From: Rhododendron vialii
Taxonomy: Eukaryota; Streptophyta; Magnoliopsida; Ericales; Ericaceae
NCBI RefSeq assembly: GCF_030253575.1
Contig: NC_080568.1
Coordinates: forward strand, 2,497,501 to 2,561,500
DNA: 64,000 nt
Direction of reading: 5' to 3'
In this document: positions 5,322 to 56,200 of the stretch, piece after piece
Layout of the letters: each line of letters opens with the position of its first letter
Position numbering within the stretch: position 1 is the first letter of the stretch
The notes under the pieces: generated by a model
The model's database searches: none
What the model was told of the DNA's origin: nothing
Seen by the model: the letters and a program-made list of their open reading frames with translations, nothing else
Translations under genes and position numbers: made by a program

Positions 5322-9363
<4,042 letters not shown>

Positions 9364-19074: not shown

Positions 19075-19179
19075 TAATTAAGTTAGATATAGAGACTCCC
19101 AATGGCAGTGAAGCCATATCCTTCTTTAGACCGTTTCACAAACTAAAATAAGTAATAATTTTTTGAAGGGAAAAAAATT

Positions 19180-20575
19180 GTAATAGTCCTTGTACTTAAG
19201 TGTTCGTATCAATTTGGTCCCTGTAGTTATAATTAGCTCGATTTACACTCTGTACTTTTCATTTTGTTTCAATTCGGTCTAATTACTAACTTCCGTTAGT
19301 CCTTTAAATAGCAAAATCATATGGCCCCATTTTTTGGGGTTAAAACAAACCCATTCGGCTAAATAAGCCAACTTCCTTATTTTTTGTCTTTATTCAATTT
19401 TTTTTTTGTATTTGTTAGTTTTTCGTCAATTTTTTTGAGGGTTATTGCATCGTCATGACGAGAAGAATCTAAAAAGTAAAAAATTATTATCGAAATTCAA
19501 TTTTTTTTTGAATAAAGACGAAAAAATTGGCTTAGGTTTATTTTTCAACATTCCTAGTTAGGAATCAATGCATGAGCCAAATGTAAGAAAATGAATGGAA
19601 TGACAGTGCACTTTTTTTGTAACCACTTGGGCTGTTAAGTTAGGTTTATTATAACCTAGTTGAGTGGTTTGTTATGTCTATTTATTAGGTTATGACATGG
19701 TAAATTTGATACTGAGTTTATATAATATTCTGACTTTTGGACATGGTTATTTATCATGTTATGACTTTTGGATCTATATCATGTTATGACTTTTGAACAT
19801 GGTTCTATATGCAGGCATCTCAGTATTTGTCCACAAGTTGAATATGTAGACAATATCAGTGGTTATGATGCCTCAAGCTGATCATGAAAATGCTGAATTC
19901 GATGACAACTTTTTGTAGAAAATTATAACTAAATTTCTTCCCAAGTGCCTCATTATCAATGGAGAATGGAAGAATGAGCTGTGTTTTGGTTCAGAGGTAT
20001 ATTAGGGCAATAGGGGAACGAGTAATCCTATTCAGCTAAATAAGCCAACTGGCTTATTTTTTTGTCCTTATTCAAATTTTTTTTCGTATTTGTTAGTTTT
20101 TCGTCATTTTTTTTGGAAATTATTGCATCGTTATAACAAGAGGAATCTAAAAAGTAAAAAATTACGATCGAAACTTAATTTTTTTGAATAAAGACAAAAA
20201 TAAGCCAATAAGCAAATTTTTTCGTCTTTATTCAAAAAAAATTGGATTTCTATCATAATTTTTTACTTTTTAAATTCCTCTCGTCATGACGATGCAATAA
20301 CCCCAAAAAAATTGACGAAAAACTAACAAATACGAAAAAAAATTCAATAAGGATAAAAAAAATAAGCCAGTTGTCTTATTTAGCCAAACGAGTCTATTTT
20401 AACCCCAAAAAAGGGGGCCATATGATTTTGTTGTTTAAAGGACTAACGGCGGACTAACGGAAGTTAGTAATTGGACCAAATTGAAACAAAATGAAAAGTA
20501 CAGAGTGTAAATCGAGCCAATTACAACTACAAGGACCAAATTGACATAAATACTTAACTATAGGGACTATTTCAG
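19180..20575. mobile_element. 1.4-kb element with long inverted arms
   Basis: The left arm (from TGTAATAGTCC) and right arm (ending GGGACTATTTCA) are inverted over about 200 bp or more. Both contain TAACTTCCGTTAGTC-type sequence, ATGAAAAGTACAGAGTGTAA (or its complement) and CCATATGATTTTG. Smaller AT-rich foldback units (19345-19555; 20028-20390) extend the arms. The interior at 19560-20025 has no clear coding sequence. Class uncertain; Mutator-like is one possibility. Confidence 0.6.
20028..20390. repeat. AT-rich foldback unit (dispersed family)
   Basis: Almost fully self-complementary. GGCTTATTTTTTTGTCCTTA at one end pairs with TAAGGATAAAAAAAATAAGC at the other. The core GAGGAATCTAAAAAGTA pairs with TACTTTTTAAATTCCTC. 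Confidence 0.65.
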
Positions 20576-20764
20576 TTTTTTTTCCTTTTTTGAATTAAAG
20601 GTGATATATTATGAAAGAATCACCTATCTCGTAAAATAAAAAATAAATACTTAAACAATAAGAATGAACCTTAGCAGAACGGGAATTGACCTCTTCATAT
20701 CCACTAGCTAACACTAATGCTGAGGAAACCGATAACAATCAACAGCTAAATTTGCAAAAGGGAA

Positions 20765-21517
20765 AAACTTGCTAGTAGTCAACAAACCACGAAATGATCA
20801 ACGGGCACACCTAATACAAAAGTTGCATAGCAGTTGACATAGTTGAAGAAATGCGGCATCTCATAAAAATTTAACTCATAGTTTTCGTGTCCACTGTCCT
20901 TAACTCAATAAAGGTCATTCGCGTGATGGAAACAAGAGATTCGAGTTACAATAAGTACGACGATACAAACACCAGAGGCAGTAACTACGAAGTGGGAAAT
21001 TTCAACCGTGTGGCATGTTTCCGTGCAGCAGAAGTAGAAGAGTCCTGTTCAGTTTCTTTGTGAGAGGCTTCCCAGAGTCTATGGAGTATGGCTCTATGCT
21101 CAATAGCCAGTTTCCTCGGCTCCATCAAACCTTGCTCATTTAGAGGATCATACACTCAACATAAGAATTATGAAGTTGTAGATTAAGCTGAAAGGAAATA
21201 TAATGCCATGACAATTCAAAGACACTCAAACTCAACATGAAGGCTGCAGCCATCATGGTGTGTCATATTTCTCCTAGGTAAAATCACTGGCATTTTTGTT
21301 TATTTAACTTCCCGAATAGCATGTGCGATTGCCCTAGAAATTTCAGCTTCGTGCACTTAAGTTGCAGTTTTAATCATCTCAAGAGGAGCCATACTAAGAT
21401 TGTTGGAGACAAACCCGACATGATATCAGATGGGAAGCTCATGTTCAAGGGAGAGAGACTACAGAAAAGCAGAGGTTGTGTTTTCTGATATCATATACTT
21501 GTTCAAGGTCATTGGAG
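20765..21517 (-). pseudogene. Decayed second copy of the SCD2 3' end
   Basis: This matches 25416-26640: the last intron's end, the last exon and the 3' flank of the SCD2-like gene. On the minus strand it still reads EQGLMEPRKLAIEH and then RLWEAS, with [14 protein letters not shown] following. However the splice acceptor is lost (CTAA instead of CTAG before the exon), there is a 15-bp in-frame insertion after IEH, and the stop codon has mutated. It lacks the hAT MITE and the SINE found in the intact copy. It sits on the far side of the PPR gene, as a tandem duplication of about 5.1 kb would leave it. It is not expected to make a protein. Confidence 0.85.
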
Positions 21518-21884
21518 TGAGATTGAATGCCTAAGATGATCGTCCAACAGCTAGTCTGGTTCTTAAAGGTCTCATTTGGATACCAATCTTGCAACGCAGA
21601 AATGAACCGCCAAGTGCTGACTTCAAGAGATCGAAGCTTATTAGAAGTTTGTCACCATTGATTGGAACCAGAGAGTGGCTAATATCAACATACAAACAGA
21701 ACCATAGCTTTAGCAGGAAGCGGCCCTCGTAGTCGGTGCTTATTGGTAGATAGTTTGGTCCCTTTTTCTTTTATCTCAAATAAAGCAAGTTCCACACCAG
21801 CCCCAATAAACAACCTTGTGCAACTTCAAATTTCTTGAAAGATGGATAATTCTATCCCCCACCATGACGCATCGTTAAAGTGTA

Positions 21885-24380
21885 TCACCAGTAATCATTA
21901 CAAGAGCAAGTTCCATGTCGGAAGTGATGAAACCGATTAACGTCTCTGATAACAATCTCTCGCTGCACAACTGTTGATATGCACTTAATTGCAGCATGGC
22001 AGTCCTGACATATTCGGAGATTTTTCATGATACGAATAGGACTTCCAAATGGTGTCCTAATAAGCCCAAAGGCTAGAGCTAATCTTTCACTGTGCGCCCA
22101 CAAGAGGCGTGCCTTTTCATCATCCCCCACATCTTGTAATAGTACCTCATAATTGGGAACATAGCCTGCCATCTTGGTTTTCATGTTGAGCCACTCCAGC
22201 ATCCCGCGTATTAATCTAATGTCAGGGTGTGAAGCATCCCCTACTACGAAATGATGAACAGTTCCTTGATTCTCAATCCAACTGAGGCCTGGTTCTTTCC
22301 TTACTCCTTTCTTCTTCATGTTATTCCTAATAGAAGCTACATTATCCCACCTTTGTGCGGCAGCATACATATTTGAGAGTAACACATAGGTTGCATCATC
22401 ACTGGGTTCCAATTCAAGCACATGAAGCGCAGCTATTTTTCCAAGGTCAATATTATTGTGAACAATGCATGCCATGAGCAAAGCACGCCAAATCACAACA
22501 GAAGGCTCAAATGGCATTTCCTCAATCAGCTTAACAGCCCTGTCAAGATGGCCTAATCGCCCTAAAAGTCCTACCATGCAAGTATAATGCTCAATACAAG
22601 GATTGATATGATAGTCATTCACCATGGAAGCGAAATAAGCTTGACCTTTGTCTAATACGCCCGTGTTGCTACAAGCTGAAAGAACGCCAACAAACGTCAC
22701 TTTGTCAGCTTTAGTTTTTGTTTTCTGCATATACTCAAAGATCCTCAGAGCCTCACTACTGAGACCATGCATGGAATACCCTGAGATCATTGCATTCCAT
22801 GATACTACATCTCGGTTGCTCATCATTTCAAACACTTCACGAGCATCCTTAATGCTCCCACACTTGGCATACATGTCTATTAAGGCATTTCCAACTGTTA
22901 TAACTTTGTCATAAATGGTTTTAATAGTCAAGGAATGAATTTTGGTTCCAGGCTCTAAGGCTGCTAAGCTAGCACAAGCACAAAGGACACTAGTGTATGT
23001 CACCTCGGTTCCCTGCACGTTGTCTTCACGCATTTGTAGAAACAAGTTCAATGCTTTCTTTGCATCTCCTAATTGCACATAGCCAACAATCAAAGTGTTC
23101 CAAGTCACCTCATTTCTGTTTGTCGACTCCACAAATAGGTCCACTGAGTTATCCATCTTTCCACATTTGGAATAAACATCAATAAGGGCATTTGATACAA
23201 ATACATTCGAGTCAAAACCAACCTTCAATACATTGCAATGGATTTGCTTTCCCAACTCTAAATCTGCCGTATTTCCACAAGCTTGAAGCACGCTAGCAAA
23301 AGTAAATTGATTCGGAAGGACTAAACTTCGCCTCATTTGAAAAAATAGTTCAACAGCCTCTTTGCTCCTCTCGCTCTGAGCGTATCGCGCAATCATGAAA
23401 CTCCAAGGAATGACATCACATTTCGGAATTTCTTCAAATACAAGCTTAGCATCCTCAAGATCTCCAAATTTAGTATACAAGTCAAGAAGAGCAGCACCAA
23501 CATAAGGATCCATCTCATAACGCATTTTCAAAACACAAGCATGAACACTCCTCCCTAAATCAATGGCCTCTAGTCCAAGAGACGCCTTAAACACACTCCC
23601 AAGCGTAAAATTATTCGGCCTTAACCCCACCATCCTCATATGAGAAAACAGTTCTAACGACTCTTTGAAAAAACCATTCTCTACATAGCATGTCACCATC
23701 CCAGTCCAAGAAACCATGTCCTTGCAAATAATATCACCAAATGCTTCTCTAGCATCATCAACAAGGCCACAAGCAGAATACGCGTCGATCAGAGAAGTGC
23801 CCACAAATGCATTGGACCCGTGACCTAGCTTATACAAGCACGCGTGGACACTCCCACCCAACTCTGCCGATTCCACACTCACAAGCAACTTCAAAATCGA
23901 AGTAAAAACAAATGGGTTAAGTTCAAGACCTTCCCTTTGTAATCTAACAAACAAATCAATGGCCTCAAGATAGCTAAGAGACTCTGCACACCCCTGAATC
24001 AAGGTAACATAAGAAACGGTGTTTCTTTCGGGCATTTCATCAAACAACTTGCGTGCATCAGACAATAAGTCTGTTTTTACATACACGTTCAATAGTACAT
24101 TCCATGCAAACAAGTCCAAACCACTACCTCTCTTTAGAATATCACAGTGGAGGGCTTTTCCTGAGGTGGGTTCGCCATTTTTCACGCAATTCTGGAGCTT
24201 AATTGCGTATGCATGAGAATTGAACTCTGATGCTGTGTTATGGCTTGTGAAAACAGTGGGTTTGTGTTGTTCGGTGATTTGGAGAGCTTGGTTTGAGAAC
24301 CCATACTGTGAACAGTGAATAAAAGTGGTGGATGTGAATTGGGTTGACAACGTTTTACAACAACGGGAGTATCTAATCAT
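21885..24380 (-). CDS. Pentatricopeptide repeat protein, PLS class with E/E+ and DYW domains
   Basis: An intronless gene of 831 aa, a structure typical of this family. The N-terminus (MIRYSRCCKTLSTQF) is basic and Ser/Thr-rich, suiting mitochondrial import. About residues 50-640 are PPR repeats with characteristic segments such as FAWNVLLNVYVK, NALIDVYSKCGKMD and VSWNAMISGYSMHG. The C-terminus has the PG-box region (RKEPGLSWIENQGTVHHF) and a DYW cytidine-deaminase-like domain: HSE at 763-765, CxxCH at 791-795 and the final DYW. Such proteins bind organelle RNA and specify C-to-U editing; the target here is unknown. It closely resembles what I recall of Arabidopsis At5g13230. The reading frame is intact from the first ATG to TGA at 21885-21887, with no sign of decay. 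It lies between the intact and decayed copies of the SCD2 3' end. Confidence 0.95.
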   Translation of the reverse strand: MIRYSRCCKTLSTQFTSTTFIHCSQYGFSNQALQITEQHKPTVFTSHNTASEFNSHAYAIKLQNCVKNGEPTSGKALHCDILKRGSGLDLFAWNVLLNVYVKTDLLSDARKLFDEMPERNTVSYVTLIQGCAESLSYLEAIDLFVRLQREGLELNPFVFTSILKLLVSVESAELGGSVHACLYKLGHGSNAFVGTSLIDAYSACGLVDDAREAFGDIICKDMVSWTGMVTCYVENGFFKESLELFSHMRMVGLRPNNFTLGSVFKASLGLEAIDLGRSVHACVLKMRYEMDPYVGAALLDLYTKFGDLEDAKLVFEEIPKCDVIPWSFMIARYAQSERSKEAVELFFQMRRSLVLPNQFTFASVLQACGNTADLELGKQIHCNVLKVGFDSNVFVSNALIDVYSKCGKMDNSVDLFVESTNRNEVTWNTLIVGYVQLGDAKKALNLFLQMREDNVQGTEVTYTSVLCACASLAALEPGTKIHSLTIKTIYDKVITVGNALIDMYAKCGSIKDAREVFEMMSNRDVVSWNAMISGYSMHGLSSEALRIFEYMQKTKTKADKVTFVGVLSACSNTGVLDKGQAYFASMVNDYHINPCIEHYTCMVGLLGRLGHLDRAVKLIEEMPFEPSVVIWRALLMACIVHNNIDLGKIAALHVLELEPSDDATYVLLSNMYAAAQRWDNVASIRNNMKKKGVRKEPGLSWIENQGTVHHFVVGDASHPDIRLIRGMLEWLNMKTKMAGYVPNYEVLLQDVGDDEKARLLWAHSERLALAFGLIRTPFGSPIRIMKNLRICQDCHAAIKCISTVVQREIVIRDVNRFHHFRHGTCSCNDYW

Positions 24381-25180
24381 GCCCTTGTTTTAATTCTCTT
24401 GTCAACTTCAAGAGACGATTCATGCTCTTGTATAATTAATCAGGATTTTGATTCTTGACTCAATTAACGAGAATTCGATTCTTGAGTCAAGCCTATTCAT
24501 GATTGGCTATAGTTGTAAACTTGTACTAAATAACCCAAATTTTGGAGTAATTACTTAGTGCATGATTCACCATGTGGTTCATACACTTTTTTTTAAAACC
24601 TCACAGTAATGTATGGTATAATGTGGGAAGGAAAAGGACCTTGGGACACCACGTTTTTGGTTATTGGAATGGGTTAACTTGTTCATTGTGAAAGCATATA
24701 TAATTTGCAGTGGGAACGAATCAAGTTGGTGAGACAGATTCATCCAAGAGAGTTTGCTTTGTGTCCGCACCTGAACACTCTATGCTTTGCCACTCTAACC
24801 CCCTTTCATGAGTGTGATCGACAAGTTCCACTCTTGGCTTTTCTTTTTTTGTTGTATTTTTTTTCATTATTTTTTATATTTTCAGACCGGTAGTGTCCGT
24901 TTTTATTGTATTGTATTTTTCTTATATATTATATGGGATGATCTTGTATGTCAAAAAACAAAAAAACAAAAAAAACAAAAAGAAGCCCGTGCTTAGTTCG
25001 TTTGGTTGGTAAGCTCCTCGTATAATTGACCAGGATTCAACTCAATTGACCATAATTCAATTCTTGAGTTAGGCCACGAAAAAATAATTTCTCATGAATT
25101 TTTTAGTTCCGGCGTTTATGGTCTGCCTTTGACAGGACCGTAGACGATCAAGCCCAGACACCCCTGACTATGTAACAAAA
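24381..25180. other. PPR upstream flank and SCD2 downstream spacer
   Basis: Presumed promoter region of the PPR gene (to its right) and distal 3' flank of SCD2. T-rich sequence near 24840-24985 has no coding signs. No clear TATA element. Confidence 0.3.
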
Positions 25181-25305
25181 AGGGCCGGATTATTTGCAAC
25201 CACAAATTTTCTGAACGTAGCCTATTTTCATGTACAAATAAAATGTGTACCATAGTATAAACAGGCTACGTTCAGAAAATTTGTGATTGCAAATAGTTGG
25301 CCCCA
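25181..25305. repeat. 125-bp foldback hairpin
   Basis: The arms 25181-25222 and 25263-25305 pair over about 42 bp with few mismatches. Their inner part CACAAATTTTCTGAACGTAG is perfectly matched. The loop is about 40 bp. This is probably a very short MITE; a transcript would form a long stem. Confidence 0.65.
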
Positions 25306-25518
25306 AAAAAAAAAAAAAGTATTTCTAGACTTCGGTAAAGGAAAAAGTAGCGTCCAACTTGGGTTATAATCTGGATTGTATTAAGGAATGATTTCCAGAC
25401 TTCTGTAAGCAATCGGTATGGCTAAACCTGCAAGTTGTCGACTAACCACACGAAATGATCAATGGGCACACCTCAGTTTGCTAATACACAAGTTGTATAA
25501 TAACAATTGACATAATTG

Positions 25519-25712
25519 CAGTGTTCTAAAACAAGGAATTAATCGACGATTAATCACCGATTAATAGCTAGAGGAACCTATCCGATTAGGTCTGATTAAC
25601 AATTAATCGCTGATTACTAATTAATATATACCGATTAATTGCCGATTAATCTGATTAATTGCTCAAAGGTAGCCGACCGCCCGACTAGCGCCGAGCAACT
25701 TTTAGAACATTG
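25519..25712. mobile_element. hAT-like MITE, family member 1
   Basis: The ends CAGTGTTCTAAAAC and TTTTAGAACATTG are inverted. An exact 8-bp duplication CATAATTG flanks it (25511-25518; 25713-25720). The interior has repeated CCGATTAAT/ATTAATCG words. The decayed copy near 20838-20855 reads GACATAGTTGAAGAAATG with no element, giving the empty site. It lies about 250 bp past the SCD2 stop codon. Confidence 0.9.
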
Positions 25713-25959
25713 CATAATTGAAGAAATGCTGCATCTCATAAACATTTAACATATAGTTTCGTATACACATTCCTTCTCAATAAAGATGAGGATTTGAAGG
25801 GTAAAAAAATAATGTACATTCAGGTACATACAAGTATACATAACTTACTTCTCAAAAGTGTGTTTTCGTGTGATGGTAACAAAAGACTGAGTTTCAGTAA
25901 ATATGACAATACAAACATCTGAGGCAGTAGCTACAAAGAGGGAATTTTCATTTGCTTGG

Positions 25960-28900
25960 CTATTTTCGTGCAGCAGAAGTAGAAGAGTCCTGTTCGGTTT
26001 CTTTGCGAGACGCTTCCCAGAGTCGATGCTCAATAGCCAGTTTCCTCAGCTCCATCAAACCTTGCTCAACTAGAAGATCATACACTCGGCATAAGAATAT
26101 AAAGTCGAAAAGAAAGCTGAAAGAAAATGTTTTTTGATAACTCTTGCACGCCCCTCGACTACTCCTAGGGGACCAATCCTACCGCCCACTTGCTGGGTCC
26201 CAATTAAAGCTAGAGCGAAGCTCTATATGGACTAGCCCCGAAGGAGTTGGTAACATGTTAGAGATTTCAAACTTGAGACCTTGGAGGGAGCAAGCCCCTA
26301 AGCCCAGGCCAAGCTGAAAGGAAATATAATGTTAGTTCAAAGATGCTCAAATTCAAAATGAAGGCTGCAGCCATCATGGTGTGTCACATTTCTATTATTT
26401 ATAAACACCAGCATTCTTATTTATATAATTCCCGCAATAGCATGTGTAATTTGCCCTAGAAATTCCAGCTTCGTGCACTTAAGTTGCAGTTTTGATCATC
26501 TCAAGAGCAGCCATACTAAGATTGTTGGAGACCAACTTGACATAGTCGGATGGGAAAGCTCATATTCAAGGGAGAGAGACTACCCAAAAGAGCGCAGAGG
26601 TTATGTTTTCTCATATCATTTACTAGTTCAAGGTCATTGGTGTAATTGTTTCCCGAATATACTCCTTGTGAACCATCCAACTACACCCTTTGTTTATTTT
26701 CTTGGAAACCTGCTAAAGACAGGAATGATGGTCCGCAAACATGTTTTGTATCTTGTAAGAATTTTTAGAGCACCTCTAAATCCACGAATGTTTACTTGTT
26801 ATTCCTTCTGCTGATGCGTACATACATTTCTAGAAGCACCAACACGACACGTGGGCACCTACACACTTCTAAAAGCGTGTGCAAGAATTCTTCACCGTGT
26901 GTCAATTAACGTTCAAAATTGATACTATCTACTCTTTAGCAAAACTTCGGTGACACCTCTTGAACCCTCTGAAGATCTCCTATGTGATGAACCTCTTCGC
27001 ATTAGAAATCTTCTGCATTCTTTGAACATGTGTTAAAAAGATTTATAACATGAATAAATCATGCCCGCAGTTTTGCCTTGTTTCCCTTTTTCAATTTTTG
27101 CAAAGACACTGTTGAAACCGCCAATCGATAACTGCATGTAAAGATGGGGATTGTAATCAAGTAACATACCATCAACAGAGTCATGTGTAGATGGTGAGTG
27201 CCCACTGCGGCTAATCCAAAATTGGAGTCGCTCTTTGGCAATCTCCTCTTCAATACCATGGACTTTGGCTCTTCTCCAAAAGTAAGTAAGCCAAGCCTGA
27301 GCAAGTTAGAAGGGATACAAACAAGAATCCAGTCGTCAGAATTATTAGAAAAGTTTGATCTCAAAATCAATCGCGAAGAAATAGAATATGAAAAAGTAAA
27401 ATAATGCACAACCACTATATTGAGGTCATTGTTCAATGAAGAATTGTTAAAATTTAGAGTAATCTCTACGAAAATTGATGAGGTTTAGGGATGTAGATTG
27501 AGGTGTAAATAAAAGAAATCTCCACACGTAGCGCATCTCTTCGTGAATATCAACGTTGTCAAGAAGGCTGGAGCCAGAATGAACACTGTTGAATGAACTA
27601 TTTGAGCTTAAAATTTTAGCTACTCAGATAAATGAAGTGGCTTCTACCTAGTAACAACATTGGTAAAATAGAAATAACATACCATGTATTGACGAAGCAC
27701 CATACTATGTTTATAACCACATGAAACATGCACTTTGTTAAGAGCGTGACATATATAAAATTAGCATGATTGTACTAACAATGCTAAGTAAGAGAGAAAT
27801 CTCAGACCTCCTTGAAAAGAACATCTTCGGACTCTTCTGGACTCAGTTCTGCAGCGAAACAAAGACCTCAAAGTTAAACTCAGGTTCATTATGAAATTGG
27901 ATGATTCATACTGCTGTGTGCAGAAAAGTTTTGACATGGACTTAAATGATCCATACTGCTATGCACAGAAGTTTTAACAAAGTCTCATCTTTGAGTTTTC
28001 AATGTCGGTCCAAAGTAGTTTGGGCAGTACTTGATTATTGGGAACAACTGAATAAGGACATAAACAGCAACCAACTCCCATTCTGAAAGAAACAAATTCA
28101 AGTGCCGAGGAAGGAACAAAAGCAAAAGCAAAAACTATTTCTGTATGATATCGTCGAAGAGTTAAACAAAATCATGACAAGGGACAAGTTTGCCCTAGTG
28201 ACATTTTTCCAGGAAGGTTGCATCTTTGCTGAGGTGTGGATACTGCTAGTGTTTTGTAAGTTTTGACAGCGAGAATTCATCAATTGAGTGTTGGATCATT
28301 GCCTTCCCACTAAATGGCAGGCTGGCAGCCATACACTCTGCAATATCAATGCATCGTAGCTTCTATAGCAAAATGCCGTAGTAAGTTACACTTAACAAAA
28401 TCTAAAGTATACAAAATGAACAACATACCAACTGCATCCGTATACTTTGGGTCACCAGGTGACTTGATATCTGCACATGAAATAATTAAACCAGTAAGTG
28501 AAAAGAGGAAACAAGTATTTCAGTGCATAATTGAACATGAGAGATTGTCATTTTCCTTCCTGTACCAATAGACTTCCTCAAAGCAACAAACAAATTTCAC
28601 TGTCAAAGAACTCCATTCCTAGTTAACTACTACCCCAAAACATAATCTAGAAGACATCAACATCCTTGAGATTGGCTAACATGCTCAAATTGTTAAAAAA
28701 ACAGGAAAATGAGACGGAGAAGGGAAACAAGAAATTAGAATCTATGCCGGCTTTTATTCCACAGGTGAGCTTCAAAAAGTTTGAATGTGTCCAACTCTTT
28801 ATGGAACAGGGAAAAGGGTGACCCAACTGCCGTGGAAATTTTGTGGGAATTAGAGGAAACAGCCTTTCGGGGAAAAAGAAAACATACTTGGAGTTGGAGG

Positions 28901-31900
28901 GTAGTTTTGCCAGTTCACCAATATTTCCCCTCAGTAATTGGGCCAACCTATTCAAAGACAGCTGATTTTGGACAAGGGTTTTGATAAAAGGGCAACCTCA
29001 TTTAAGAAGTAAAATCATCAATAATCCATTGTTACACACAAGTCTACATGGGACAATGAAGACTTTTCAGTGCCTCACTGAAAAGAGAGGATCAGAGGAC
29101 ACATTCATAAACAGTGCTACCATTTTCAACGAGAAACCACATATTGTGAGGAAGCTTATCTATTTAAGCAGGTATCAGCCATCAAGCATATCAGGAACAT
29201 GCATATTACAAACCTGAATTGGATAGTCGAGTTGCATTTGCACGTCGCTGCTGTGCCAGTGCAAGCACGATGGCATCCTCAACCTGGTAAAAAGCAACCC
29301 TAGATCATGTAAGTAGGTACTTCGATGGAAGAAAATACTACACTAAACACAACTGCAGTTGAAGAACATGGGGAAATGAAGAAAAAGAGAAAAACAGAGC
29401 AAGCAGCCTGGTCTGAAGAATAAAAACTACTGACGAGCAGTGAAGCGTACAAGATAAAAGCAAAACAAAAAAATCTTATACTTCAGAAGGAAACCTTCAA
29501 TGACACAAGTTCCTTCAAGCCCATTTCAACTGAAAGCATACTTTCTATATTCCCTTCTCCAGTCAGATCAAAGTCCTCGAAAAGTTTGCTCCTTCTCTCG
29601 GGATTCTCATCACCTGCTCAACAGTGTAGATAAAAAGGCATCAACGACTAAGGAAAAGGTGATATCCCAAAGAAAATTTGTTATCTCTATAAGACGAAAA
29701 TCAATGAAGATATAAGTGCTAACCTTTCTCCCAGCCTTCCTCTTTCGCTTTTTGCCCTGCAGAAATAACAACTTCAAAAGGAAGAGGTGCCAAAGATGAC
29801 CAGTACTCGTACTTTGACACTGCAATATCTGCACAAATGCCTGAAGGACAAAGGAATATTGCGATAGAATAAATCTGATTAGAGAGAATAGGTTATGACA
29901 GAAATCCCAATCCAGTAAAACACTTGTAGACCAAGCAGGAATTAACATGATCACATTCTATTCAGACAGCTCAAAAAATGCAGAGCTAATTGACAAGAGA
30001 TATGCACACACTCTAAGTAGATGGAACACCCAAGTCTGAGTACTTTTGAAACCCCAATGATACAAGTTCAAGGCTGTTACATCATGGGAAATTTCAAAGA
30101 AAAAGAAGGTACTTTTGTAAGCACCCAGTTTAAAATTTTGAAGCTTTTGAGGTCTTGTTTTTGAGAGAGATAAGATTGAATGACGCAGAAAAGGTCAATC
30201 CATGTTTGAATGAACATACAAAAGAAGTCACAACCTGGGGTACAGGAAATAAATTGCACGAGAACTTTAGTCTTAACTATATAGGTTGGGTAAAGTGAAT
30301 AACTAAAGGTACACATGAACTTTTTTCCCCCTGTTTTTGTGTTGGGAGAAAACGAAATTTCTTTTTTAAATTAAGTAAAACATAATTGTAACATGTAGAT
30401 TACCATGTCGTGCAGCTAAACCCCAATAACGTGCGAGCCAACACCGCTTAAGAACAACTTCTTCCTGCATGGTGATTTGCTGGTAAATTCAATTTTGGAA
30501 AAATTGATAGTAGTACGTATCAAGCAACAAAGAAAGAACCTACCATTTCACTTTGTGTTAAAACCATCCTCTGTGTCATTGAGCGAAGACCTTTAACTTC
30601 AGATTCAGTTCCCTGAAGCTGATCTACAGCAGCTGCAGCCTCAGTTTTCACTTTCTGATTCAAGCAAAATATATCATACAAACATGGTGATGGAAGATCC
30701 ATTAAATTTGCATAGGAACTATATGTGCTATAATGAATAATCACAGTGGAAGCATTATTACCTTAAGTTCAGCCCGAAGGGATACAATTTCCACGTCTAC
30801 CCCATCATTTGTTTGCTTTGCTTCTTTAAGCGCAGCCTATAATTTTATGTAGATTTTTCATTATACTTGAAGGACACAAGGCAAATGAACTAGTAATAAG
30901 AAGTCAAAAATAATGGCCTGAAATGCTCTGTAAAATCCTATTTTACAAAATTTTAATGTATAAAATTATCTTTTCCAGAACACCAAACCACTCATAAGTA
31001 AATATAAAATTCTATTTTCCACTTGCATGATGACCTAGGCAAAAACTGAGAGGTTCATCAATAAACCTTTATTCAAAATGAAGAAACAACTCAACCACCA
31101 CCCACCTCTCTTTGACGCAGCGCAGCTTCCTTCCTGCGAGTGATTCACGTGAGAAGTTTTGATCAGTATCACAAAGAAAGAGCTACAAGAAGAACATATG
31201 ATCCAAAGATAGGTGATGTAGGAGGCATTCATTTACCAGCATACCTGCTCAATAATTTTGCTTCTAAAGAGACTCCTTCTCCAAGAGCAGCTACCTGAGG
31301 AATCAGAATTGAACAGCAAAAAGTCAGTATCAAAATTAGACTGGTCAAAGAGGACAGTCCAATCAAGTCTGTAGAACAGTCTCACGCTTGCATGTCCTTA
31401 CTTAATGAGGTAAGGAGATAACGTCATTGGCAGGAATATAAAAGTCAGTATCCTATACTTGCTAATTCTTTTTCTGGATGTACTTCTTCAAAATGTTAAA
31501 TGGTTTTTGATGTCATCATGTAAGCTATTTGCTCTGCATTGTGGGAAAATTCGGAATAAAGTTTGATTTCTTTGGAGGAAAACAAATGGTTTTTGACGTC
31601 ATCATGTAAGCCATTTGCTCTGCATTGTGGGAAAATTCGGACTAAAGTTTGATTTCTTTGGAGGAAAACAAACAAAACCTCAAAAGTAACTTGAGCAAGT
31701 CATAAGTGTGACTAATTGTTGAGAGAATTGGTAGGAAATACATATGAAGCCAGTCCAAAAGTGAAACAGAGGACAATCAAATCACAGGTTAGGGATTATC
31801 TATCACCAGAGTCATGGAAGTGAAATAAGTGTTCAGAAATGTACAAACTCTCGCATAACATCCACTTGGGAGGCAAATATCTAGAAGCATGCCTGCTACA

Positions 31901-33381
31901 AAATAGCTAAATATGAGAATATTATTCATAGGACGACTTCTAGTTAGAAGGCGCCACACTATTACATTTCCAGATGTGCAACAGGCCAACAGCTACAATA
32001 TATACATAACCTGTTTCTCAAGCTCCTTAACTCTAGCCTCTGCTTCCTTGCAACCCTCTTCTGCAAGACTAAGCTGTAAGTAAACATAGTCCAAACTTAT
32101 TGTTATTCAACATGGACAGCATGTTTGAAAGGCTATATGATCGATGGAAATATTGTATTACTTCTATTTGTTATTCTTTTTTGAGAGAGAAGGAAAGATA
32201 GATAAACAAAAATTGCACCTTTTGAAGAATATTCTCATTCTCTTCTTGTAGCATATCAAGCTGCAGAATGAGTAGAAATTAGATTTGTAAGAGAATATTC
32301 AAGCATACAAAACAAACCATCCTCCTCTTACGTCACTAAATAACAAACTTATGATGCATATTCAGAAGTCAAGCTCACGCTGACATGGCAAGAATTTTTT
32401 TGGAGATTACTTGACATGGAAAGGTATGCTAACATACTTCATCATGAAGGGCAGAAGCATCCCGTCGTTCTCCTGTATCTTTCAAGTTCATCTGCCCCAT
32501 ATCTGAAGCAAATCTGCAGTAAGTTTCAGTATTATATAAGTACGATATGTTCTCCAGAATGGGCCAACCAAGAGAGCATACAATGATCACATGAGTACGT
32601 GCAAGGGGATTTATGCACGCACGTATGGAAGTATTTCTTCGGCTGAGCAATGAAGCATAGATTCTATTACGCAAAGTTTGCTCTTTGTTGTCCGGGACTA
32701 TGGTTATACAAACATGGAGACTTATCTTTGAGTCACAATGATAGTAAAAGACAATAAGGAGGAACTTTAGTTTTCTGACCTTTTCTCTCTCTGCGTAGTA
32801 GAGGGAGGATCAATTGGTGGTATAGGAATTGGAGTCTTCAGCGATGTTCTACTAGGTGGTACTGATGGAATTGTGCGAATAGACATCGTAGGCGTTGCAG
32901 CTGACGTTGAGCGAACTGAAGGAGCTTCCTCTACAATGTTCCGAGCTAACTAAGAATGACAAAAGAACATCCAATTAGCCGCCTTCTTGAAATTACAACT
33001 ATCACATCAAACCCAAGCCCCAACTAATTACACATACACATGTTGATGAATTGCAAAGATGATGCAAACTAATGTGTACTTCAAAAGATGGAAACTTTCA
33101 CAGGGCAGCTTAATTCATTAGTTATTTACCATTGAGATCCAAGAAATTTAACGAAACTCAAAGCAATAGTTATTTTAATGGTGTTTAATTGTATTTGAAC
33201 TTGAGGAAGGACAATCCAACCTATGAAGAACCTGCATTACTCTCTCTCTCTCTCTCTCATCACACACACACACAAACAGAGTTGTATTCAAATAATTAGG
33301 TCATTTTTCTCATATGTAACAGTAACTGTATTTGATCTTGAACTTGAGGAAGCACAATCCAAGCTATGAAGAAGCTGCATT

Positions 33382-33444
<63 letters not shown>

Positions 33445-33798
33445 ATTCGTAGATCTAACAGAAAGGCAGGTGCATTGGACCACAATGAACACTAAGATCT
33501 ATAATCCAAACTCAGTGTTTGGTTTCCCATAATTTACTTCAGAAAACAATTAAAGACACAATTTTCAACCATCACAACTTCTGAAAACACAGCGATCGCA
33601 AAATCGACCCCGCAAAGGCACCAGATCAAAATGCAATGATTTCGCCAACTAATGCATACTTCCAAAGCTCGAAACTTTTGCAGAGCAGCTTAATTCATTA
33701 GTCATTTAAAACTTGGGATAACACAATCCGAGCAATTTAACGTTGTTAACCTGTATTTGATCTTGAGGAAGCATAATCCAAGCTAAGAAGAACCTGCA

Positions 33799-33848
<50 letters not shown>

Positions 33849-33904
33849 ATATTCAAATGATTAGTTTCTCTAACAGCATTTAACTGTATTTAACTTGAAG
33901 AAGC

Positions 33905-33940
<36 letters not shown>

Positions 33941-34606
33941 GTATTCAAATAATTAGTTTTTGTTAAGCATATTTAACTGTAATTAAATTTGGGCAAGCAC
34001 AATCCAAGCGATGAAGAAGCTGCATCTTTGACACACACACACAATTGTATTCATATGATTAGGGTTTTTTTTTTAAATAGTATTTACTGAATTTGAACTT
34101 GAGGAAGCACAATCCAAGCTAAGAACAAGCTGCATTACTCTCCCTCTCTCTATGTAGATCTAACAGAAAGGGAGGTGCATTGAACCAGAATAATTACTAA
34201 GATCAAAATGCAGTAAAAATCACAGACTGGAGCGTACTGAAATTACCGCATTAGAAGCAGATCTAGTCGACGGAACCACATGCTTGATACTATTACTGCT
34301 GACGTTGTTCGGCCTCGTCGTCACACCGAACCGAAAATCGTCGACGACGTCGTTTTCCTCGTCGTCGTCGTCGCCGTTATCAGCGGCCTGAGAAGCCATG
34401 ACCTGAGCGAGTCTCTGAGCGGCGGCTTTGGCGGCGAAGTTCTGGTTTCGCTTGATGTTGGAAATGCCGGTGGCGGAGGAGGACCGGGCATGGTGGTGGT
34501 GGTGGCGCGACGGCGACATTGTCGGAGAGGAGGCGGCGGCGGTTGAGATCGGCTCGGTGCTCCATCGGTGGAGGGAGACTGGACTGTCGGTTTGTCTGAG
34601 GGCCAT
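25960..34606 (-). CDS. SCD2: SCD2-like coiled-coil protein (17 exons)
   Basis: Probable homologue of STOMATAL CYTOKINESIS DEFECTIVE 2, which in Arabidopsis acts with SCD1 in clathrin-linked post-Golgi and endocytic traffic and in cytokinesis. Exons: 34247-34606, 32780-32949, 32438-32513, 32219-32260, 32011-32073, 31245-31294, 31106-31133, 30762-30836, 30544-30654, 30404-30464, 29724-29840, 29495-29613, 29214-29283, 28429-28470, 27808-27848, 27170-27296, 25960-26069. Total 1662 nt, 553 aa; phases agree throughout. The N-terminal 120 residues are low-complexity (Ser, His, an acidic DDDDEEND run, and [16 protein letters not shown]). Residues about 195-325 form a coiled coil ([39 protein letters not shown]). 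The C-terminus has the conserved [14 protein letters not shown] (from 326) and [18 protein letters not shown] (from 476). Intron 1 and the leader are loaded with CT/GA tracts. The match to Arabidopsis At3g48860 is from memory. Confidence 0.92.
26130..26310 (-). mobile_element. SINE in the last SCD2 intron
   Basis: On the minus strand the element begins with a tRNA-like head (GGTCTCAAGTTTGAAATC as decayed box B) and ends in TTATCAAAAAAC, an A-rich tail. The flanks AAGCTGAAAGAAAATG (26114-26129) and AAGCTGAAAGGAAATATAAT (from 26311) are a target duplication. The decayed copy near 21186-21206 has the same sequence once, without the SINE. Confidence 0.8.
31498..31671. repeat. 86-bp tandem duplication in SCD2 intron 5
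   Basis: Two adjacent near-identical units begin AAATGGTTTTTGA-GTCATCA and end TTTCTTTGGAGGAAAACAA. Only a few substitutions separate them, so the duplication is recent. Confidence 0.85.
33195..34180 (-). repeat. Composite minisatellite and CT tracts in SCD2 intron 1
   Basis: A unit CTTGAGGAAGCACAATCCAA plus AGCTATGAAGAAGCTGCAT and a CT run recurs at about 33199, 33341, 33760, 33893 (shortened), 33985 and 34097. CT runs are at 33240-33259, 33386-33441, 33800-33844 and 33909-33937. One unit has a CA run in place of CT. Confidence 0.85.
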
Positions 34607-36678: not shown

Positions 36679-39617
36679 CTATCGCAACGATCTCCCGAGA
36701 ATTAATCCTTTCATCTTCGACATGGGAGATTGGTTTTGCTTCATAACATCCGCGTACCGCGCCACACGATCTTTTAAAGCCGTGTTCTCCTCCGTTAGCC
36801 TACTGATATGGATCCGTAGAGCTGTGATTTTTTCCCTCTTCTCGTCACTTCTCCTTATCAATTCAGCCTGCTGCCTCGAAACATCCTCCATCAGTTCCGA
36901 CACGCTCAGCCGCAACTCATCCCACGTTTGCTCCCTCTCCCAAATGCCGGAATCAATCCTCCTCCCATCGCGATCGGATTCAATGCCATCTATCTTCGCG
37001 TCCCTGCCTCCTATTCTGTTTTGCTCGTTAGTTTCTCGTTCGAGGGAATTTGTTGGCGCGACTTTGGTGATTTTGAAGGATCTTGTGCCGGTAATGTGAG
37101 GATGTTGGACTTGCTTGAAGGAACTTGACAATGGCGTTGATGAATGATCAGCTGATAATTCAGTGGAATCGGATCGCAGCTGGTCGTACTTTTCGGCTAA
37201 AGAACGGTATGATTTGTGGAGGTCTTCTACCATTTTTTTCAGTTCTGGTCTCTTTTCGTAGTACATTTCAGCTCTCTTGGCAAATGAATCACCATCTTCT
37301 TCTATGAGGTTCAACATCATCCTTGTTTTCCTATCCAAATCTGCATATTTGTCACAAGGTTTTGACATACATGAAAAGGAGGAGCTAATATATGGAGCTA
37401 ATCACCATCCCAAGGAGGCAGAACATTTCAAAATTTAGGGCCGACGGAGGGTTTGTCCGATAGTTAATTTCAGGGCTTTAGAATAAGTCGAGATAAGATG
37501 GCTGAGACCTACCGCCGTTAAAAACAATACGAGGTTCAAGCACATGATAGGAGCACAGTCATATATATTACGGCTCCGTTCTCCTAAACTTTTTGACTAA
37601 AACATTTTCCGGTATTTTTTCAACTTTTTGTTCATCTTTTCATTATAATTTTTAGAGTTATTTTATCGTCCCGACAAGAGGAATCAAAAAAGTGTAAAAA
37701 TGTGGACAGTATGTTGAAAAGAATTCTTATAAGACGACACTTTAGATAAAAAAAGACAACGGTTTGGTATTTTTTTGTTTTTTGTGAACATTTTGTTTGC
37801 TTTTGGTCATAATTTTGTACCTTTTAGACTCTTCTCATCGAGATGGATAATTAATCCAAAAAATATGACGCAAATCAAATAAAAATTCAGAAAAAAAAAA
37901 CGAACAAAACGAAATAGATAAATTTTTTAAGAGGAACGGAGCCGTATGGTCTGGCAGTAACATTTGATGCTTTCTGCATTAAATGGCCATCACAAAATAT
38001 GGAAATACTCATCATTTACATTCAATATATAGTTTCCTAATCAGTGGGGGAGCTAGCATATGTCCAGAGGCACGTGCTTCACTTTTGGAGTTTTGACCCT
38101 CCTAGGGAAAAATTTTCGGACTTTGAATTGGTGTTGCGCAGTGAGGTGTACAATACTCTACTGCACACCTCTGAGCCTAATCAGTGGGGGAGCTAGCATA
38201 TGTCCAGAGGCACGTGCTCCACTTTTGGAGTTTTGACCCTCGTAGGGAAATTTTTTCGGACTTTGGATTGGTGTTGCGCAGTGAGGTGCACAATATTGTG
38301 CTGCGCACCTCCGAGCCGTCGGATCGTGCATCCGACGGCTTGGATCTCATCTTGAAAACCAATGATCAAGAGCTGTTCATTTAATGTTTTAGTAAATTTT
38401 TTAAATTTTTATCCAAGTATTTTGAGAAATAACCATTTTTTAGCAAAAAAATGTACTAGAAAAGTAAAATGATATTTTTTTGCTAAAAAATGGTTATTTC
38501 TTAAAATACTTGGGTAAAAGTTAAAAAAATTTAATACTTTTCTGTTTTCGCTCGTCAAGACGAATCAATAACTTATAAAAGTTTAACGCAAAACTAACCG
38601 ATACAAAAAAAATTCAATTAAGGTCAAAAGAATGCAGCCCATATTCTTGTACTTTTGCTTTGACCCTCGTTGGGAAACTTTGCCCTAATTTAAGTCAAAG
38701 CAAAAGTAAGAAGTAAAACTTCCCCTAAAACCTTATGATCAACAAAGTCAAAGCCCATCGCGGGCCTGTTTGTCTTTTTGTTTTATTTGCTGTCGGTGGT
38801 ACGATTTGTCCTAGTCGAGCAATATTAACTAATTTGCTTTAAATTATGGTGAAAAGAGGGCCTAGCATATAAAATTTCAAGAGAAAGTGACCGATGTGTT
38901 TAATTGTAAATTGGACATCTATCCATATCTATCTATAATATATATATAAAGTGGGTACTCTCAGCCATCAAGCTAGATAGCCTCCCTGTTAGTCAATTTT
39001 GTTTCATCTAATCAAAATTTTAAATAGCAGTAGCTACATAGGAGTTACGTAGCTTATCGGTTGCTACACATCTTATTTCTTGATCTTCCGAAATCGTTGC
39101 ACCCCAATATATATTGGTGAGATTGGAGAAATAAATGTGCAAGCGACCGTGTGTCATCATGTACCAAAATTCAAGTGTTTTCGTCAAAAATAACTTTCTA
39201 AAAAATCCAAGACTACTAGTGAAAGTATTAGGTATAATTATGCGTGTTCTGTTTATTATGTAATGGACTTTAGTGCAAAAGTCTAGGTTGGAATAGTAGC
39301 ATGCAGTACAAAGACAGGTGAAACAATAATATGTACCATGTACTGAATAGTAATAACCAATTATGTATAGGTACTGTTTGTATAATGCAGCGGATGATGT
39401 AAGCAGTCTCCTTACGCCTATAAAAAGAGGACTTCCCCGTAATGTAATCCAGGTCAGTTTAGGTGAATGCAATTCAGTGTTTTCTAGTAACATATCCCGT
39501 GTCTCTCTTTGATCCTAACCTACTTTGTGTTTGTACCCATTTCGTGTATGTAAACTCACTTGATTCCAATTATCTATTGTTCTATATCGTCAACACAATT
39601 ATGTACATCTCACACTC

Positions 39618-48500: not shown

Positions 48501-51500
48501 CAGCAATTCTCATCCCACGTAAAATGCGAGCTGTAGAAATACTAATTAGAAGTTAGATGCCTTCTAAATGTGGTTGAAAGGCAAACATCAAGAAGGTAAG
48601 GGGGAAGAGGGGGGGGGGGGGGGGGGCGGGGGGGAAGAGTAATCACCACAATCATCCTCAAAAGAAGTACTTGCAGGTATTACAGTCCGTACCTGTGGAT
48701 AAACAGGTGATAAATACGGGCTGTGTAAATTACAAACGTAGTAACTCCTGAAACTGAAGCAACAAGAATTACATACATACTTTAGCTTTCTTCATATCTT
48801 CTAATCCTCCCAAATAGTCATAAACAACCTTTGTGAAGGGGTCAAACATTAACCTGCAAAAGCCAAAAGAGCGCGAAAATGTAAATTCAAGTAATATTAT
48901 CATGAAAGTCATTGACTCACTTGTAATATACAATGGCACTGATTCAAAAGCAAATGCATTTAAGTAACTCCTCAAGGGTCAGGTAGATTACCCATTAATC
49001 GTAAAATCCCTTTGTAAACAATTTCTCCATCGAATAAAATCGTCCTCATTGCAACCATGAGGCTTTCTGAAACCAAAATTCGAATTCCTTACATACTTCC
49101 TCCCACAGGTGCTAAAACTTGAAACCTGCTCAATAAGAAACGATGTGAAAGAGGGTAAGACAAAGAACAGAGTCGAATCATATTGCACACAATGACACAA
49201 ACCAGCTCTTGACTTAAATTCCAAAATGCATCATGAAAAGATGATTAACTGCTTGGTACATAGAAGTAAGCAAACGCACATCTATATTACCCAGAAACAG
49301 ACCTCAATAATTTTATCATCTACATGCACGTGGCAAATGGGAAACCGCCTGCCAACAACTTCACACCGCGAAAATGTTCTTAATACCTGCAAAATGTGGA
49401 CCAGATTAAACTGTTTATGCCGCAACCTATTAATTTGAGACGAAGAAAGCAAAAGCTGGCAAATAATAAACTGAATTTGCAACAATAGAGAGAGTTTTTA
49501 TCCTTCATAAACCAAAGGAAACTGATAATTCTTTTGCCACTATCCCTACTTTCTGTAACCAAACCAAACCGAGCCTTATGTCCCAATCACTTGGGGTCGA
49601 CTACATGAACCCTACTTTCTTTGACTTACATTTTTACCTTTGCCCCCTAAAAAGGTACATAAATGCTATAGTTGTAAGTAAGATAAATTAACAGTGTGGC
49701 TGTGGGGAGGAAATTGGAAGCCAAATTCTAGATTCTAGATATGACCAGCATTTTACAAATGATTAAACTTCCAGATATACCAGGCACTTTAGGTGTTAAA
49801 TAGTAAAGACTCTGTCACTAGTAAACCATCTGAGTTAATTACTATGATAATGGTCCAAGCTGAAGCTTACTACGAGATTTCACCAAAAAAGCACAAGTAC
49901 ACAAAAGGATATACCTCCTTAAGTTCAGCTGATGTAATAATGTCAAAGTCTTTAGGAATTCTCTTCAAGATAAGATCCCGGACACATCCTCCAACAAGGT
50001 AGACTTCATATCCTTCAAATGGAAGTATCACTTTTTAGAACATTGGGGAAAAATGAAAATACAGATAACACAAAGAATCCAAGAGGAAATACATGATTGA
50101 CCTTTCTATGTGGATGCTCATGATAGTCACAGGATTGCAGGGCAAAATCAAAGTATTCGTAAATTTGAAATAACAATACGAGGAAAAAAGTTCCCAAATT
50201 CATTTTTTAATATAAAAATAAGCAAAACAAGAACTGGCAGAGATAAGTCAAGCATCGACGTTTTGTTTTTCTTTTGGGTGAGTTCAAACAGCACCATAAA
50301 ATTCACATAGAGTATCAACGATTCAACAAAGTACAAATCAAGCAAAGTCGGATTGAGCATTCCAAGTGAATGACTGTACCATTCCTTCTCAAACTCATTC
50401 CCAGGAATCAAACTGCCTAAACTCTTAAACGCAAAAGGCCAGTGTTCTAAAACAAGAAATTAATCGCCGATTAATCATTGACGGGGTCTATCCGATTTGG
50501 TTTGACTAACGATTAATCGCCAATTACTAATTAATATGCACCGATTAATCGCTCGAAGGTGGCCGACCGCCTGACTATCGCCTAGCGACTTTTAGGACAT
50601 TGCAAAAGGCAAACTTTGGACCCAGGGCTCTAGCCCAAGCAGTCATGGAGGGGGGCCTTAGTGCTTGTGGGAGAGGTCTCAGGTTCGAGTTGATGGAGCA
50701 AAATTGGCCAGCTGTTGTAACACTAACCACTAACCCTATCACTGTGGTGAAAAATAAGAGAGGCAAACTTTGGTACCTTTTTTCCTCAGCCCATTCAGAA
50801 CCATTCGTGTTGGTTTCCCAATCATAGACGTCTTGATTCCGAGATCTTTTGAACTCAATTTCTTCCATTCAGGTGCCTTGCTATCACCATTACCTATTTC
50901 ACAAAACCAAAACAATTCAAAAACTTCTACATTGGCAATAGCAATACGCCACTTTCCAAAATCTATTCAACATTGAAGTTAAACAAATCTAATCTTTACC
51001 GCAAACGAATTAAACAGAATGAAACTATTTCACACCAAAACAACTAAAAAGCTTCCACAATTGCAATGGGAAAACACAACTTTGGAAGCTTCCACATTCA
51101 AAAGCTTCCAAAATCAATTCAAAAGCTAAAAAAAATCCAATCCTTAGCACAAATTACCCAATTCACATCAAAACAATGAGGAAAGATTCAACATTAGAAC
51201 AAAAGAAACCCAATTTCCAAAAAATAATTCAACATTGAAGCCGAAAAAATCCAATCTTTAGCACAAATGAATCAAAAAACTTGACTCACTCTTTACGCTT
51301 GACGTTTTCGAATGTTTGATTTCTTGCTTGGAAATACTAAGAGATTCAACAGGTGACACCACTGCTGCAACGGAGCTGCTACGCCGAACCTGCACTAGAA
51401 GTAAAAGCTCAGAAGAATTCAGGAGTCTCAAGGTCTCAGGTTAGAAACTTCTTAATTGGCCCGCTAGTGGACGGTGAGATTGGTCCCAGTATTAATCGAG

Positions 51501-53286: not shown

Positions 53287-56200
53287 CTGCAACGTCAAGA
53301 AAGGTAGAAGCTGTTGCCCTCTACATCTTATCTCTATCTGCGTTAGTCACACCGATTATTATCAAATTAATAGTGATGATAACAAAAGTTTTCATCAAAT
53401 AGGCCATAGAGATAAAAAAAAAAAAGAAAAAAGAAAAAAGGGGTTTGAAAATCTAAAATATTGTCACAATGATAGCAATCACCATCATTGTATATGCTGC
53501 TATATGACCTGGAAACCCTAGCTAGATAATTGTGCTGGATCACTTTAAAATGATTTTTAGTCACTAAGATCTATTTTGTATGTATGATTCGTATCCAATT
53601 TGGCAATAAAAAATTACCACATTATTATCATAGTTACAACAATTTATGTAGTTTCAGAGCTTAAATGTGAATATTTTTCTTGCTCCGGCGTAGAATTACC
53701 CTCCTTTTGCCTTGCAATCTCAGAATATTGGAAGGGTTCTTCTATAACCCGAAATATCAGGTTCAGCGGAATCACGTACTAATCGGAGGGACCAATCTCA
53801 CGATCTATGAGCTAGCTAGCTAGGTGTCCAACTAAAGCTAATTGACATTTGAGAATGATGATATTGAAAGCTCTAGTCGTATTGTCAGAATAATTTGGTT
53901 CTACATTCAATAACTAATTAGTAAGATCATTTTTGAAAGGATTTCCTAGTAAATTACTAGAAGAATATCATCATCATCATCATCATCATCATCTAATCTA
54001 ACATTGTTGTAGCCGTGGCATTGACTGCCAATTGAGCTGCCCATAAATAACCCAGAAATCCATACCTTAATTATTACGGAGCAAACCTATCCTGACCACT
54101 ATTGTAAGTAATTAAAAGTCAAATGTGTCCTAATCACTTTTAGGATATCCTTAATTAAATTCATTCATCATCTTTTTAAGCTGAACAATTCTTCATGTGA
54201 TCATCTGAAAAATCCTGAATTTAATATCACCCTCCTTCACGATCGAGTGCATTTGATGGATCTGATCGACCTCGGTGTTGATTTCTTGCGGCTGTTCTTT
54301 GTTTTGTTTTGTTATATTTTCTTTGGTTATTATAATTGTATTTTTTTTAATACCATAAATAGGATAATCTTGTTCGTTAAGAAAAAACCAAAAACCAAAA
54401 TTGTCTTTTGTAATGTAGTACATAAGCTACCAATACCATCTTAATTTGTAATACTATATAAGCTTCTTCCATTATCCTTATTAACTTGTATTATCTTTTT
54501 AAGTTAATAAAATTTCTTTTTCTTATAAAAATAAATCTAAGCCACAAATTTTTCTTGAACTTAACTAGTTGTCACAGTCATCTTGAAGTCATGCTTTGTC
54601 ACAAGCTTACGTTACCCCCATTCTTCCTTTTGTGTTCCTTAAAAAAAAAAAAAAAAAAACTAGTTTCCGTATGTCTCTCCGAAGTCAGAGTAATTTTTGC
54701 TTATAAACCACCGCCATGTGACGCGTCTCGTGTTCGCTCCACTACGTATTGTGACCGCCTCACACTTGATAGTGAAATCTACGTCAATGTATCGTGGAGA
54801 AGGCCGGTGGAGTTCCACGTGATCAACAATTACTCCTAAATTTTCACTACTTAAGTTTAGTACTTATTTTTTGAATTAAAAATAATGTATTTTATGATAA
54901 TGATCTGTTTCGTAAAAATAAAAAATAAGTACTTAAACAATAAAAACCTTAACAGAATGGAGCCGTAATCCATCTGATCTCTCTCTCCCACTTTTTCCTT
55001 CACTCCCAAGAGATTCGAGGGAGAGGCTATACTCCAAATAGGGCCGACTGATTGGGTCTGCCCGACCATCCCACGATAGGAAAAAACTGCCCTAATTTAA
55101 TCATCACGGGACCCACCTTCCCTTTGCTCGTAAGCCTAATATCATCATAACCTAAGACTTTCTTTGGATTATACACTCTATAGAAACATAGCATATATAC
55201 GTACAGACGTATATGAAAAATTATACTCTTATACTCCATTTTAATTATTATAATTCCATACGAAAAAGTCGTACTAGTATTATTTTTTCGATAAAATACA
55301 AACTATACATGTAAACAAAATTTCTACTTTTTCACACAATTTTAACAATTAATTGAGATAGAAGAAGTAATTAATGAGCAGTATGACAGATGGTACGTAC
55401 ATAAATATATATTTTTTATCACACGAATAGTTAAACATTGATAGAGATGTATGGAAGCAATAAGGAGTAGTATGACGGATATAACGAATAAGACTATCCG
55501 AACACCGGCAAATATCATGATAACGTGAACTTACTCTTTCCGAAAAAGTCGAACCAATTTTTTGAGTGGAAAAATAAAACACGTAGATGTATGAATTTTA
55601 CCAAGTTTTTTCGCACAAATTAATTTGAACTTTAATATAGACGGAGGGAGTAACGAATAGAAATGTGAATTTTTTTTTGCCCGAACACAGATCCAACAAA
55701 ATCCACACACACTGCGACGACTCCAAACAAGTTGTTTTTGGATCTGTGTCGAAGTCCAGCCAGAGTAACATAATTCTTGAGTAGGCCAGGGTCATCTGTT
55801 CTCGTTCTCAATCATCACTCTCGCAAATTCTAGTAGTTTTTTGAAAAATGCTTTTACGCGTGTGATCCCACTTTTGCTAGAGCGTTGTGTGAGTAAGGTC
55901 CAAAAATCGTTGTCGCAATCATAATCTCCTTGTATAATATAGTAGTAGCTATCACTACTAATAGTAGGAATGGAAATAAAAAAAGGTGACGGATCCAAAA
56001 AGCACGGCGTGGTATCAGCACTATTTAACTCTTTTCATGCACGTCTCACTCACGTTGCTTTCCCTCTCAATCAAACCCTAATTTGAAAAGGTCAATATTA
56101 GGGTTTTCTTTTAATTTTTTTTTTCTGACTGATTATAATGTAACCTGGCCAAAGCATCTTTAATTCCAATATTGGGGCTAGTTTTTATATTGTTTAGTAT

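Follow-up and report, generated by a model that had tools for sequence, protein, structure and literature searches.

In the stretch of Rhododendron vialii DNA analysed here (64,000 nucleotides, C12:2497501-2561500, referred to as the window), a decayed copy of the 3' end of an SCD2-like gene lies on the far side of the neighbouring PPR gene. This left copy (20761..21514, minus strand) comprises the last exon, part of the last intron and the 3' flank, and its counterpart, the right copy (25415..26639, minus strand), is located inside the SCD2-like gene and is larger by two insertions. The left copy is found ~370 bp past the stop codon of the PPR gene, and 3.9 kb containing this intact gene separate the two copies. 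Taking into account that both have the same orientation, lie close to each other and end inside the gene, the left copy is a direct local duplicate of a gene fragment. About 0.75 kb of the SCD2-like 3' end was duplicated locally, and the right copy then gained two transposon-like insertions.

When the window was compared with itself by blastn, three collinear pieces on the same strand were found to join both copies: 21185-21518/26311-26643 (84.5%, E 5e-99), 20918-21199/25865-26128 (79.8%, E 2e-66) and 20838-20913/25713-25785 (84.2%, E 3e-14). The matches obtained with a local aligner are dense across 20761-21514/25415-26639; the cheap gaps of this aligner lead to a loose extension beyond both ends, which was left uncounted. 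The pair scores 502, versus 30 or less among 300 random segments of the window. Blastn and alignment therefore agree on the duplication, in one orientation and on both sides of the PPR gene, that a first-pass annotation had described, and the alignment of the two SCD2 3' ends that it suggested gives a similarity far above chance. The outer edges of homology that it had placed at 21517 and 26640 are right to within a few bases. Over 20765-21524 aligned with 25424-26649, with both insertions of the right copy removed, 631 of 725 columns are identical, corresponding to a K2P of 0.143 +/- 0.015. Identity varies along the copy (chi-square 11.4, p 0.0099), the K2P values being 0.191 in the 3' flank, 0.077 in the exon, 0.18 in the intron up to 26440 and 0.088 in the intron from 26441, where the copies are 91.7% identical.

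A search of the whole genome (532.6 Mb, 13 contigs) found the segment at these two places only, with both of the two candidates scored. Three paralogs of SCD2 exist in this genome, at C8:30.65 Mb, C12:30.99 Mb and C7:31.55 Mb. The origin of the left copy in the neighbouring SCD2-like gene is supported by sequence comparison, since its only match at the DNA level is the right copy and the paralogs are 59-71% identical in protein, whereas the exon of the left copy reaches 92%. The possibility that it could be a piece of an older separate SCD2 gene, raised in the first-pass annotation as an outcome that would overturn its reading, was rejected on the same grounds: the genome-wide match is to the right copy alone, and the paralogs are far more diverged.

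The SCD2-like gene (25960..34606, minus strand), whose name is provisional and follows the first-pass annotation, has exons recognised as translated pieces; the three pieces tried gave nothing above the Pfam cut-offs. Its last coding exon (25960..26069, minus strand) follows the splice donor GATG|GTATGT and the acceptor TCTTCTAG|TTGAG at 26070/26069, and its stop codon occupies 25960-25962. This last-exon boundary recurs in the C8 paralog. On the minus strand, the SCD2-like gene (34606 to 25960) is followed by the PPR gene (24380-21885), an intact single-exon gene of 831 codons (21885..24380, minus strand). It belongs to the DYW class, with PPR repeats, an E motif and a DYW domain in Pfam (DYW_deaminase, E 3.2e-42). 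In the literature searched on the SCD2-PPR gene pair, nothing was found about their order, and none of the papers found contained At5g13230. Upstream of the SCD2-like gene there is an open frame (36682-37368) with a KIP1 domain (Pfam), which is presumably of the NET type (NET3).

Pieces of a serine carboxypeptidase (SCPL) gene, labelled as a carboxypeptidase from Pfam, are present at 6294..9250 on the minus strand. SCPL lies beside SCD2 on both contigs, in the window and at C8:30664139-30666613, and of the three 30-kb regions surrounding the SCD2 paralogs only that of C8 has SCPL downstream, in the order and orientation observed in the window. This conserved arrangement suggests that SCD2 and SCPL have long been neighbours, and the two SCD2-SCPL stretches are likely a pair of duplicated segments. 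The PPR protein has no match at E <= 0.001 in any of the three 30-kb paralog regions; in the SCD2-SCPL interval of C8 (10,177 bp) its best E value is 1.3, and no PPR gene was detected there. It was also observed that the upstream flank of the PPR gene (24907-25181) matches C8:30662772-30663031, inside that interval, with 59.9% identity over 284 columns (E 1.3e-8 in one search, 7e-10 in another). This match was not accepted as a sign of a former PPR flank at that place, because its direction is opposite to that of the collinear SCD2-SCPL pair and because, at its start, it overlaps sequence that has many matches across the genome.

The two insertions in the right copy have the features of transposed elements. 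One of them (25519..25712), which we assign by assumption to the hAT superfamily, is a non-autonomous element with short inverted ends, a perfect 8-bp target repeat, CATAATTG, on both sides, and more than one copy; a relative is located at 50440-50607, where the 8-bp target repeat was read by eye. The other (26129..26310, minus strand), which is SINE-like, is inserted in the last intron of the SCD2-like gene between 15-bp target repeats with one mismatch. A 27-base probe revealed no further copy of it inside the window, and a relative of 26137-26286 is present just left of the window, at C12:2496718-2496859 (68%, E 1.4e-12). Since the left copy has an empty site for each of them, both insertions came after the duplication.

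The left copy has lost its splice acceptor and its stop codon, as had been pointed out earlier. It has AA where the acceptor of the right copy has AG, no stop codon is found at the corresponding position, and the frame remains open for ten further codons; a 15-bp in-frame insertion relative to the right copy is also present. The 36 codons of the exon compared between the copies hold three nonsynonymous and four synonymous differences (dN 0.037, dS 0.18 over 24.5 sites), numbers too small to decide about constraint. From these features, the left copy is most likely a dead, non-functional fragment of the SCD2-like gene without present function, and gene conversion, or a past use of the copy, may lie behind the few changes in the exon and the uneven identity. 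Truncated gene duplicates, or partial pseudogenes, contain part of an exon-intron gene, cut in an intron and decayed, and the left copy resembles them with no notable difference. It is highly improbable that the PPR gene retains it as a borrowed gene end, using it for its 3' untranslated region or to end its transcription; if it were true, the copy would have brought the end signals of SCD2, in sense orientation, to its place behind the PPR stop codon. In the last intron, a peptide-like stretch (26398-26559, minus strand) has a counterpart in the left copy, with one stop codon common to both; neither the Protein Data Bank nor Pfam nor the SCD2 paralog regions gave a match to it.

A long-arm element lies beside the truncated end of the left copy, as had been reported, with 175 bp between its end and the start of the homology, and its limits, formerly given as 19180-20575, are actually 19168-20585. 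It is MULE-like, having long terminal inverted repeats and, around it, a 9-bp target repeat, TTTTTTGAA, that is perfect. Its joined flanks match 54842-54960 across the junction (75.6%, E 8e-18). Given the perfect target repeat and this related empty site, the element inserted cleanly into an unbroken older repeat. The idea that it marks a deletion is contradicted by both features and by the 175-bp gap, and was rejected. The older repeat, split by the element into 19134-19167 and 20586-20682, has another copy at 54842-54960.

To look for a second PPR copy on the left side, window positions 1-20764 were searched with 21515-26640 under sensitive settings; this gave a single blastn hit (E 0.50) and no PPR remnant, and in the next 20 kb leftward the same DNA search produced, apart from the SINE-like relative, just two hits (E 0.30). 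Using the PPR protein, nothing better than E 4.7 was obtained in the window outside the gene itself, and the 40.8 kb to the left of the decayed copy yielded no match at E 0.01; when 184 kb including these 40.8 kb were searched, only the gene and a relic to its right appeared. In a positive control carried out on the window part at E 0.01, with planted relics of 15-25% divergence, 358 of 360 relics of 80-400 bp were recovered (88 of 90 at 80 bp), as well as 82 of 90 at 60 bp. It is possible that a left PPR copy disappeared entirely, leaving no evidence.

The PPR relic consists of two pieces, C12:2617796-2618511 and C12:2642865-2643492, in the orientation of the gene and ~24 kb apart, at ~96-122 kb to the right of it (40 of 298 candidates were scored in the search that found it). 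An open reading frame for a reverse transcriptase (Pfam) is found ~2 kb to its left. Between gene and relic, dS is 0.305 +/- 0.047 and dN 0.161, as estimated from six pieces picked from blast hits (925 aligned bases in all). Compared with the noncoding K of 0.154 +/- 0.017 between the left and right copies (z = 3.0, synonymous sites being set against noncoding ones), the relic looks older than the split of these copies by about three standard errors. The 184 kb that were searched contain no SCD2 copy next to the relic, and the similarity between its upstream flank and that of the PPR gene does not exceed chance (29 of 200 random segments scored as high), with several weak pieces nonetheless in order (best E 0.041). 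This relic does not appear to be the half that is missing from the duplication unit proposed earlier.

As regards the origin of the left copy, the explanation preferred, tentatively and at slightly under an even chance, is that a double-strand break arose ~370 bp past the PPR stop codon and that its repair, using the right copy as template, put the left copy there as a patch. The left copy would thus have been produced in a single step, and a second PPR copy would never have been present on the left. This reading is preferred because it needs one event, which accounts for all four ends of homology; the presence of only two copies of the segment in the genome, and the lack of any remnant of 21515-25423 left of the decayed copy, also speak for it. 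There are precedents in plants for filler DNA and small duplications arising through break repair, in the relevant passages of PMC2686159, PMC3445842, PMC3706897 and PMC7407515. In the filler and templated insertions treated in those of PMC2686159, PMC3706897 and PMC3445842, another sequence, often a nearby one, is copied to a new place, and gene fragments can be the outcome; the left copy resembles them in this. However, its 754 bp are long relative to the 1-131 bp of copied filler in the maize cases, as quoted from PMC2686159, and here we infer the mechanism. In rice, inaccurate break repair is said to give insertions of 10-1000 bp (quoted in PMC7407515), and the left copy falls within this range, as given there for tandem and partly tandem duplications (Vaughn and Bennetzen 2014, cited in PMC7407515). 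Unlike those duplications, its two copies have 3.9 kb with an intact gene between them.

A tandem duplication of 5.1 kb, including PPR and the SCD2 3' end (21515-26640) and followed by the disappearance of the left PPR copy in its entirety, had been proposed for this locus. Its geometry fits, and the left copy abuts the 3' flank of the PPR gene where the junction of such units would be expected; however, it requires two events, 3.9 kb of the left unit show no trace in 40.8 kb, with a control that was sensitive in the window part, and the long-arm element is not the scar of a deletion, all of which makes this history doubtful. Of that proposal, the local direct duplication and the decay of the left copy are retained, but not the 5.1-kb unit with PPR, as no left PPR trace was found in the 40.8 kb searched and the one relic found lies on the other side and looks older. 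A variant in which a larger block extending from SCD2 to PPR was duplicated in tandem, with most of the left SCD2 deleted later, would generate the left copy, the PPR gene, the right copy and the PPR relic in the order seen on the contig. This is very unlikely: besides the apparent age of the relic, its chance-level flank and the absence of a second SCD2 beside it, ~86 kb, including the KIP1-domain frame, lie between the 5' end of the SCD2-like gene and the relic.

Conversely, it could be the PPR segment (~21515-25423) that entered the 3' end of SCD2, the target being duplicated as left and right copies by a staggered-break type of repair. Every boundary would again be accounted for by one event, the right-hand relic on the same contig could be the source, and in the paralogous C8 segment SCD2 and SCPL follow in order, no PPR having been detected in the interval. 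Yet C8 may just as well have lost PPR, the relic appears to have diverged before the two copies did, and the ends of the segment have no terminal repeats beyond chance (for inverted repeats, a best score of 14 versus a shuffle mean of 15.2), so we regard this insertion as unlikely. The templated copy remains the explanation tentatively preferred.

Partial local duplicates are common in plants, and the biological weight of the left copy is accordingly small; the duplication behind it was most likely an ordinary kind of local DNA event. It has to be noted that in annotation the left copy could be taken for an exon. The locus also offers a lesson, as target-site repeats together with a related empty site tell a clean transposon insertion from a deletion scar at the edge of a duplication. 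Finally, between the PPR gene and the right copy, a hairpin-like element with inverted arms (25182-25308) was observed, which matches many places in the genome.
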